Assembly (NCBI GenBank): GCA_028684195.1 | Contig: JAQUGH010000003.1 | Span: forward strand, 2,257 to 41,635 | Length of the DNA: 39,379 bases | Origin: Clostridia bacterium | GTDB lineage: Bacteria > Bacillota > Peptococcia > DRI-13 > DTU073 | Reading direction: 5' to 3' | Shown here: piece after piece, positions 21,167-39,339 of the stretch | Numbering within the stretch: position 1 is the first letter of the stretch | Layout of the letters: each line of letters starts with the position of its first letter | Translations under genes and position numbers: made by a program | The notes under the pieces: generated by a model | The model's database searches: none | Told to the model about the DNA's origin: nothing | Seen by the model: only the letters and a program-made list of their open reading frames with translations

Positions 21167-22357
21167 TTATTCACTAATACCTGTTACCACACCAGCTCCA
21201 ACAGTACGTCCGCCTTCGCGAATAGCGAAGCGAACTCCTTCTTCAATAGCTATCGGTGTAATCAATTCTATATTCATTTTGATGTTATCCCCAGGCATAC
21301 ACATTTCTACACCTTCCGGTAATGTTGCTACCCCTGTAACATCTGTTGTACGGAAATAAAATTGTGGTCTATATCCGTTAAAAAACGGTGTATGTCTTCC
21401 ACCTTCCTCTTTCGTCAATACATATACTTCCGCCGAAAATTTTGTGTGAGGTTTTATTGAACCTGTTTTCGCTAATACTTGACCACGTTCAATTTCTTTC
21501 TTTTCAATGCCTCTTAGTAATGCTCCAATATTGTCCCCTGCTACAGCTTGATCTAACAATTTACGGAACATCTCCAAACCAGTTACTACACATTTGCGTG
21601 GAGCATCACTCAAGCCAACTATTTCTACTTCTTCACCTATTTTTATTGTTCCTCTTTCCACACGACCTGTAGCCACTGTGCCACGTCCGGTTATGGTAAA
21701 TACATCTTCTACCGGCATCAAAAATGGTTTGTCTGTATTTCTTTCAGGTGTGGGTAAATATTCATCAACTGCGTTCATTAATTCCATTATTTTATCTGCC
21801 CATTCACTTTCAGGTTCTTCTAAAGCTTTCAAGGCTGAACCTCTTATAATTGGAATATCATCTCCGGGAAACTCATACTCTGTTAACAATTCCCTTAATT
21901 CCATTTCCACAAGTTCCAATAGTTCTTCGTCATCTACCATATCTACCTTATTCATAAATACTACAATATAAGGTACTCCTACCTGACGAGCAAGTAAAAT
22001 ATGCTCACGTGTTTGAGGCATTGGTCCATCTGTAGCTGACACTACAAGAATTGCTCCATCCATCTGTGCTGCTCCTGTTATCATGTTCTTAACATAATCG
22101 GCATGACCTGGGCAGTCCACATGTGCGTAGTGTCTACTTTCTGTTTCATATTCTACGTGTGATGTGGAAATCGTAATCCCACGTGCCTTTTCTTCAGGTG
22201 CCTTGTCAATTTGATCAAATGCTACTTGTTGTGACAACCCTCTCTTCGATAAAACATTTGTTATAGCTGCTGTCAATGTAGTTTTACCATGGTCTACGTG
22301 ACCGACCGTCCCAATATTTATATGTGGTTTCGATCTGTCGTATTTTGCTTTTCCCAT
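21167..22357 (-). CDS. tuf: Elongation factor Tu, copy 1 (start trimmed to [17 protein letters not shown])
   Basis: [54 protein letters not shown]; 396 aa. Confidence 0.98.
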
Positions 22358-22525
22358 TTCTCTGAATCCTCCTTTAATCTCTTTGTTTTTTCGAGCAATA
22401 ATTCTCTTTAATATTAATACCCATTCAATGGCTAATCGTTCTAATATCCTCTTCCTACAAATCAAGAGCAAGAGTAAATTATTCTTAGAACATTTTAACC
22501 AAGTTTGGTTTTAACAGTAACGCTA

Positions 22526-36952: not shown

Positions 36953-38143
36953 TTATTCACTAATACCTGTTACCACACCAGCTCCAACAGTACGTCCGCC
37001 TTCGCGAATAGCGAAGCGAACTCCTTCTTCAATAGCTATCGGTGTAATCAATTCTATATTCATTTTGATGTTATCCCCAGGCATACACATTTCTACACCT
37101 TCCGGTAATGTTGCTACCCCTGTAACATCTGTTGTACGGAAATAAAATTGTGGTCTATATCCGTTAAAAAACGGTGTATGTCTTCCACCTTCCTCTTTCG
37201 TCAATACATATACTTCCGCCGAAAATTTTGTGTGAGGTTTTATTGAACCTGTTTTCGCTAATACTTGACCACGTTCAATTTCTTTCTTTTCAATGCCTCT
37301 TAGTAATGCTCCAATATTGTCCCCTGCTACAGCTTGATCTAACAATTTACGGAACATCTCCAAACCAGTTACTACACATTTGCGTGGAGCATCACTCAAG
37401 CCAACTATTTCTACTTCTTCACCTATTTTTATTGTTCCTCTTTCCACACGACCTGTAGCCACTGTGCCACGTCCGGTTATGGTAAATACATCTTCTACCG
37501 GCATCAAAAATGGTTTGTCTGTATTTCTTTCAGGTGTGGGTAAATATTCATCAACTGCGTTCATTAATTCCATTATTTTATCTGCCCATTCACTTTCAGG
37601 TTCTTCTAAAGCTTTCAAGGCTGAACCTCTTATAATTGGAATATCATCTCCGGGAAACTCATACTCTGTTAACAATTCCCTTAATTCCATTTCCACAAGT
37701 TCCAATAGTTCTTCGTCATCTACCATATCTACCTTATTCATAAATACTACAATATAAGGTACTCCTACCTGACGAGCAAGTAAAATATGCTCACGTGTTT
37801 GAGGCATTGGTCCATCTGTAGCTGACACTACAAGAATTGCTCCATCCATCTGTGCTGCTCCTGTTATCATGTTCTTAACATAATCGGCATGACCTGGGCA
37901 GTCCACATGTGCGTAGTGTCTTTTATCTGTTTCATATTCTACGTGTGATGTGGAAATCGTAATCCCACGTGCCTTTTCTTCCGGAGCCTTGTCAATTTGA
38001 TCAAATGCTACTTGTTGTGACAACCCTCTCTTCGATAAAACATTTGTTATAGCTGCTGTCAATGTGGTTTTACCATGGTCTACGTGACCGACCGTCCCAA
38101 TATTTATATGTGGTTTCGATCTGTCGTATTTTGCTTTTCCCAT
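36953..38143 (-). CDS. tuf: Elongation factor Tu, copy 2 (start trimmed to [10 protein letters not shown])
   Basis: Nearly identical to 21167..22357 at DNA level; 396 aa. Confidence 0.98.
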
Positions 38144-38198
38144 TTCTCTGAATCCTCCTCTACAAATAATGACCATCTTTTCTATTTCTGTAAATCAT

Positions 38199-38227
38199 AT
38201 TTTACAATATTTCAAGTGGTCTGTCAA
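38199..38227 (-). promoter_or_regulatory. Sigma-A-like promoter for tuf copy 2: TTGACA-N17-TAAAAT
   Basis: Minus strand TTGACA GACCACTTGAAATATTG TAAAAT. Confidence 0.8.
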
Positions 38228-38280
38228 ATATATACATTGTAAGCTTGAAATAGTTGGTCAGTTGGACAGGGAGAACCATC

Positions 38281-38357
38281 GTTTAACGATTGTTTAACAA
38301 TTGTTAAACTATTGTTAAACTATTGTTAAACGATGGTTAAACTATTGTTAAGCAATT
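38281..38357. repeat. 11-bp-period tandem array, 7 units with GTTWAAC-like cores
   Basis: gtttaacgatt gtttaacaatt gttaaactatt gttaaactatt gttaaacgatg gttaaactatt gttaagcaatt; includes 18-bp perfect palindrome gtttaacaattgttaaac (38292..38309). Confidence 0.93.
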
Positions 38358-38385
38358 GGGATGATTAGCTATTCGGATAAAAACA

Positions 38386-38420
38386 CAAAAAAGCTTAGAA
38401 GAACCTAGTTAGGCCCTTCT
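38386..38420 (-). terminator. Terminator after the orphan ORF
   Basis: Minus strand AGAAGGGCCTA..TAGGTTCTTCT followed by AAGCTTTTTTGTG. Confidence 0.8.
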
Positions 38421-38425
38421 TTGGG

Positions 38426-38905
38426 TTAAAAATCCCTTCCTCTGCCTGTGCCTGTGCCTCTCTTGAGTTCTATTGCTTCTTTTCCTTCTTTTCCTTCTTT
38501 TCCTTCTTTTCCTGGTGTCTTTATTGTATCATCATTTTTTTGTGTTTCTATTTCAGTTCCCTCCGTTTCACCTTCAATGGGAAGTGAAGATTCATAAATC
38601 TCACGTGATTCCTTCCTCCCTATTAAACCCGTTCTCTCTTTTGCCGCTTCCTCTTGACCTTTTTCCAAACCAACCTCATTTTTTCCTGTTTCATTCTTAC
38701 CTTCATTACGGAGACGTATTTTTTCTTCTAGAACGCCCTCCACTTTTGATACCCCCACCATTAACAAACTAGCTGCAGCCAGACAAGCAACGGCAGTCGC
38801 ACCACTAGTCAAAGTAAAAGCAACAGTACCACCAGTAACGGACGGAATTGCTGCTGGTGCAGCAATCAAAGCATGCATTTTTATAAGCATTTCAGGTATA
38901 CCCAT
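38426..38905 (-). CDS. Uncharacterised small protein: hydrophobic N-terminal region, charged tail with (GKE)4 repeat
   Basis: ORF track gives 38426..38983; start at MGIPEMLIKM (38905) preferred because AGGAGG precedes it and the upstream RKRRRLKK is encoded by that SD-like stretch. Own promoter and terminator. Confidence 0.65.
   Translation of the reverse strand: MGIPEMLIKMHALIAAPAAIPSVTGGTVAFTLTSGATAVACLAAASLLMVGVSKVEGVLEEKIRLRNEGKNETGKNEVGLEKGQEEAAKERTGLIGRKESREIYESSLPIEGETEGTEIETQKNDDTIKTPGKEGKEGKEGKEAIELKRGTGTGRGRDF
38479..38516. repeat. 9-bp tandem repeat (ttttccttc) inside the orphan ORF, encoding (GKE)n
   Basis: ttccttc ttttccttc ttttccttc ttttccttc ttttcctgg read directly. Confidence 0.85.
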
Positions 38906-39031
38906 TTTTTTTAAACGCCTCCTTTTCCTTTTTGCTTTTTTAATTATAATGTCTTTGTTAATACTTTTCTTACTAGTATCCATCTTGTTAATATTATGTA
39001 TAATCAGCCAATATTTTATTTCCTTAAGTTA

Positions 39032-39060
39032 CATACTACAATATTTCAAATGGTCTGTCA
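39032..39060 (-). promoter_or_regulatory. Sigma-A-like promoter for the orphan ORF: TTGACA-N17-TAGTAT
   Basis: Minus strand TTGACA GACCATTTGAAATATTG TAGTAT. Confidence 0.7.
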
Positions 39061-39110
39061 AATATATGCATTGTAAACTTGAAATAGTTAGTTGAACAGG
39101 GAAAGCCCAT

Positions 39111-39154
39111 TGCTTAACGATGGTTTAACGATGGTTTAACGATTGTTAAGCAGT
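39111..39154. repeat. 11-bp-period tandem array, 4 units
   Basis: gcttaacgatg gtttaacgatg gtttaacgatt gttaagcagtt. Confidence 0.9.
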
Positions 39155-39185
39155 TGGGATGATTAGCTATTCGGATAAAAGCACA

Positions 39186-39218
39186 ACAAAAAAGCGCCGG
39201 TCTAAACTAGCCGATGCT
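39186..39218 (-). terminator. Terminator after tRNA-Met
   Basis: Minus strand AGCATCGG-CTAGTTTAGA-CCGGCGCT followed by TTTTTTG. Confidence 0.8.
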
Positions 39219-39262: not shown

Positions 39263-39339
39263 TGGTGGCGGCGCAGGGACTTGAACCCCGGACACTGCGG
39301 GTATGAACCGCATGCTCTAGCCAGCTGAGCTACGCCGCC
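39263..39339 (-). tRNA. tRNA-Met (anticodon CAT), CCA encoded
   Basis: Minus strand GGCGGCGTAGCTCAGCTGGCTAGAGCATGCGGTTCATACCCGCAGTGTCCGGGGTTCAAGTCCCTGCGCCGCCACCA; cloverleaf arms pair; loop TTCATAC. Confidence 0.95.

Follow-up and report, generated by a model that had tools for sequence, protein, structure and literature searches.

In the arrangement usual for this order, the tuf promoter follows tRNA-Thr and tRNA-Met and precedes tuf. The locus analysed here is alike in its -35, in the 17-nt spacing, in the sequence between -35 and -10, in the A+T-rich stretch upstream and in its neighbours, but its promoter is duplicated, an ORF lies between the two copies and dispersed repeats lie alongside. 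REP/BIME- or MITE-like repeats are comparable to the repeat families of this genome in that the latter have short copies, which number in the tens to hundreds and are mostly intergenic, and, in one family, a conserved terminus and internal inverted repeats; here, in contrast, tandem 11-bp and 8-bp arrays are joined to such ends, the comparison with named families having been made via Rfam and the literature only. Lineage-specific orphan (ORFan) genes show a coding signature without detectable relatives, as does the ORF of this locus, which differs from typical ORFan genes in that the promoter in front of it is copied from a strong one of a housekeeping gene. No account of this case was found in the literature on tuf promoter duplication, on orphan genes combined with promoter duplication or on 11-bp repeats.

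The window, i.e. the whole stretch of 39,379 nucleotides that was analysed, corresponds to positions 2257-41635 of contig C81 in a genome of 2.37 Mb and 236 contigs. On the minus strand, the order of the features is tRNA-Met, a terminator-like hairpin, the spacer, an 11-bp array, a promoter, the ORF, its terminator and then again spacer, array and promoter, followed by tuf (Table 1). We consider, with a probability of roughly 0.7, that the whole is best explained by a duplication of the tuf promoter in one lineage, with an orphan gene between the copies and the repeats as passengers. The locus would offer a clear case in which duplication in a repeat-rich intergenic region put an orphan gene under a strong housekeeping promoter.

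Table 1. Positions in the window of the features between tRNA-Met and tuf
Feature	Position	Strand	Basis or remark
tRNA-Met (CAT)	39263..39339	-	Relatives have the same neighbour
Terminator-like hairpin and T-run after tRNA-Met	39185..39216	-	Sequence reading and fold; missed by consensus terminator scan
Spacer, ORF-side copy	39158..39180	-	Repeat-family match
11-bp tandem array, short copy	39107..39147	-	Self-comparison
P_orf, ORF-side promoter copy, TTGACA-17-TAGTAT	39033..39061	-	-35 at 39061-39056, -10 at 39038-39033
TACATA leader motif, ORF-side copy	38995..39000	-	Position as in relatives' tuf leaders
Probable orphan ORF, 185 aa	38426..38983	-	ORF list, coding score
Intrinsic terminator of the ORF, AGAAGGGCCTAACTAGGTTCTTCT then T-run	38397..38420	-	Terminator scan and fold
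Spacer TTTTATCCGAATAGCTAATCATC, tuf-side copy	38360..38382	-	Terminus of second dispersed repeat family
11-bp tandem array, long copy	38274..38358	-	Belongs to genome-wide family
P_tuf, tuf-proximal promoter copy, TTGACA-17-TAAAAT	38199..38227	-	-35 at 38227-38222, -10 at 38204-38199; orthologs in nine genomes of the order
tuf (EF-Tu)	36953..38143	-	ORF list

The tuf promoter and its two copies

Self-comparison of the window revealed two pairs of direct repeats between tRNA-Met and tuf: positions 38166-38258 match 39000-39092 (81% over 93 nt) and positions 38311-38392 match 39109-39190 (88% over 82 nt). The offset between the copies is 834 bp at the promoter and 798 bp at the spacer, a difference that arises because the tuf-side array is longer than the ORF-side array (85 bp versus 41 bp). 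An earlier note on this DNA had described a direct duplication about 830 bp apart, with an uncharacterised ORF carrying its own terminator between the copies, and both are present. In pairwise alignment, clear homology between the copies begins at TTTTATCCGAATAG, spans the promoter and fades within about 35 nt past the -10; the homology of the leaders, tested alone, is modest (p 0.064). The resemblance is not due to chance: across the 2.37 Mb of the genome, strong matches to the promoter core are confined to the two at this locus, and the core is orthologous to a tuf promoter that is conserved in the order. The tuf promoter has therefore been duplicated in direct orientation, with an unrelated gene lying between the copies. 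The earlier note had proposed that a junction of terminator, promoter and tuf was duplicated; this holds for the promoter, but a duplicated terminator is unsupported because the two terminators have only a 10-nt GCTTTTTTGT tail in common.

The 61-bp promoter core was used to search 25 genomes of the order. Nine genomes other than that of the window, three of them from the same family, contain one clear copy each (E 4e-5 or better), compared with two in the window's genome. In all nine relatives the promoter comes after tRNA-Thr and tRNA-Met and before tuf; in L109, L111, L115 and L117, whose contigs end at or soon after the tuf start, this placement is based on the tRNA neighbours and the ribosome-binding site, to which L115 and L117 add the first tuf codons. 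The gap between tRNA-Met and tuf is short in the nine genomes and contains the single promoter copy and no counterpart of the ORF. Relatives of this kind, which had been expected to speak against co-regulation of the ORF with tuf, mark the ORF as the later arrival and leave co-regulation unrefuted. Because these genomes have one copy and lack the ORF, the arrangement arose in the lineage of the window's genome, as judged among the genomes compared, all of which come from outside its genus. In the remaining genomes of the order no clear match to the core was obtained, and their tuf promoters have therefore diverged or are unassembled. Among the named NusG relatives, a full tuf gene is present in few only and the promoter core in none.

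In an alignment of the orthologs the -35 does not vary, a stretch upstream is rich in A+T, and AATATTGTA lies between the two hexamers. Both copies in the window match this tuf promoter of the order, i.e. TTGACAGA-15-TAnnAT containing AATATTGTA and located between tRNA-Met and tuf. The relatives are invariant at 24 positions of the core; of these, the tuf-side copy keeps 24/24 and the ORF-side copy differs at 2, one of them in the -10. The ORF promoter may for this reason be weaker, or selection on it may have relaxed after the duplication. Between families, the core (38196-38238 in the window; L109-L117) is 86-93% conserved over about 33-45 bp.

The ORF between the promoter copies

At its N-terminus the predicted protein is basic; a hydrophobic segment follows at approximately residues 55-80, and the tail is rich in E, K and G. 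An AAGGAGG site ahead of Met27 (38905) indicates a possible alternative start that would give a product of 159 aa. When scored against the codon usage of neighbouring ORFs, the frame of the ORF reaches +0.49 bits per codon and the five other frames are all negative. Because the set used for training held some wrong frames, this score is supportive and is not proof; three spurious overlapping ORFs score as high as real genes. The ORF has no sequence relatives in the libraries searched, which comprised 40 relatives, the GTDB genome collection, phage and plasmid records, Pfam, NCBIfam and PHROGs. Weak matches in relatives (E 0.06-0.7) and sub-threshold matches in Pfam, NCBIfam and PHROGs were treated as noise. 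Neither homology of the ORF to tuf nor an origin of its N-terminus in the tuf start was supported by a significant alignment, and the search for paralogs in the genome yielded low-complexity, purine-rich matches only, one example being the tail of an FtsH-like gene in contig C172. Combined, these results point to a probable orphan gene. Its product would be a lineage-specific small membrane-associated protein, the membrane link being drawn from hydropathy alone, with a charged and probably disordered tail.

The ORF could also be non-functional, i.e. a decaying by-product of a repeat-associated duplication that is read from a leftover promoter. The lack of relatives in anything searched would agree with this, as would a repetitive KEGKEGKEGKE stretch in the protein and the low confidence of the AlphaFold2 single-sequence model (pLDDT 58, pTM 0.20). 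However, the frame-specific codon signal is on par with that of neighbouring genes, and the ORF has both the AAGGAGG site and a dedicated terminator, which makes decay an unlikely explanation.

Dispersed repeats next to the promoter copies

The array pattern AACNATNGTTNARCNATNG has 571 matches in the genome when both strands are searched, and a reversed-pattern control has 0; many sites are counted twice in this number because the motif is nearly palindromic. When array clusters were compared with ORFs of at least 100 aa, 44 of the 56 clusters showed no overlap, 10 overlapped by at most 27 bp at the end of an ORF and 2 by 54-71 bp; the intergenic location was counted for this family only. The arrays are frequently joined to 8-bp CCAACTGA/CCAACTGT repeats, and no array match was found in six genomes of the same family. 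Further copies of the array are present at 302-356 in the window and at dozens of loci of the same genome (e.g. L003-L020 and L143-L168), often with 8-bp CCAACTGA/T arrays. An identity of the array with CRISPR-DR61 or a microRNA of Rfam was rejected, the scores being far below gathering; only the tRNA reaches its gathering score.

The spacer belongs to a second dispersed family. Its core ATCCGAATAGCTAA has 49 exact matches in the genome and 66 with at most one mismatch (control, 0). Copies of this family begin TTTATCCGAATAGCTAACCGTCGCTAAG and carry inverted repeats and the inner motif GGTTCAACTAACTTTCA. The boundary is sharp: ATCC is preceded by three T that hardly vary, whereas the base before these is variable. 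Clear homology between the two tuf-region segments starts at about this TTT boundary, and the duplicated segment has the terminus of the second family as its upstream edge. A related junction of spacer and array, with three differences in the spacer and without the tuf promoter, is found at another locus (contig C59). A terminator-like hairpin precedes several copies of the second family (L175, L181 and L195, among L173-L202), and six copies stand in tandem on contig C132, at intervals of 112-121 bp.

Because array and spacer recur genome-wide without the promoter core, what looked like one module consists of repeat sequence plus the tuf promoter. The earlier note had treated the module as a unit of the tuf promoter and had suggested a search for further copies elsewhere in the genome; a module specific for tuf is not supported. 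The promoter core has strong matches at the two copies of the locus only, and the array and spacer matches, numerous, at unrelated loci and above chance, are members of two repeat families that are spread over the genome and mostly intergenic. Their genome-wide distribution argues that the arrays are repeat baggage and not a control element of tuf, which corrects a tempting misreading: the apparent tuf-specific control module is mostly dispersed repeat. The array's period of 11 bp, and its place immediately ahead of the promoter in each copy, would suit a helically phased binding site or an upstream activating element, which would make the module a regulatory unit common to tuf and the ORF. 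Such a role is very unlikely, as the array is found at dozens of further loci, variously placed with respect to genes and without the core, is absent upstream of the orthologous tuf promoter in the nine relatives and differs in unit number between the two copies.

Equally improbable is an ORF that came as a mobile cassette by horizontal transfer, with or without a promoter of its own: its orphan status and the dispersed repeats close by would fit, but its promoter is a copy of the tuf promoter of its own order, it has no match in phage or plasmid records, and no transposase or integrase gene is present among the ORFs between tRNA-Met and tuf. In the general list of repeats, with the edges of the inserted part placed only approximately, no target-site duplication stands out.

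Proposed history and expression of the locus

A duplication of the tuf promoter with the repeats as passengers would have started from an ancestral order of tRNA-Met, conserved tuf promoter with its leader, and tuf, as comparison with the relatives shows. A dispersed intergenic repeat, in which an 11-bp array adjoins the end of a second-family copy, would have settled just upstream of the promoter, behind the tRNA terminator. Next would have come the duplication of the segment extending from the repeat terminus through the promoter into the leader, and a gene equipped with a terminator would have been placed between the promoter copies. The duplication itself is seen in the sequence, and the order of the steps is inferred.

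The leaders provide an indication of which copy is the original. The motif TACATA is present in the tuf leaders of all nine relatives, 29-33 nt past the -10 in seven of them and 50 nt past it in two. The ORF-side leader carries TACATA 32 nt past the -10, whereas the tuf-side leader has TTTGTA there; the ORF-side copy also retains the position adjoining tRNA-Met. Because both the motif and the place next to tRNA-Met are kept, the ORF-side copy is read as the original. The ORF probably inherited the original promoter and the start of the leader, and tuf probably runs from the duplicate, which would reverse the polarity pictured in the earlier note. As evidence for polarity, a motif of six bases is thin; the short motif and the position together suggest this direction, and the 2 changes in the ORF-side core, at positions that the tuf-side core keeps, speak against it.

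From leader motif and position, transcription of the ORF would most likely begin at the original promoter, with the original start of the leader, and that of tuf at the tuf-proximal copy. Because the ORF is likely transcribed from the original tuf promoter, it is probably strongly expressed alongside EF-Tu; co-expression of the two would be a sound expectation. A more doubtful proposal, which we put forward tentatively, is that the orphan took the ancestral EF-Tu promoter and leader start, with tuf left on the duplicate, and that its membrane-associated product scales with the translation machinery and has a role linked to growth rate; a translation-linked function of the ORF is to be taken as a possibility only.

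In this order the tuf promoter is deeply conserved, and both it and its TACATA leader motif are worth study in themselves. The motif recurs in tuf leaders of the order about 30-50 nt past the -10. The window also contains a second tuf gene at 21170-22471 (21.2-22.5 kb), which over the first 150 aa is 99% identical to the tuf gene at 36953-38143. This near-identity suggests gene conversion or a recent duplication.
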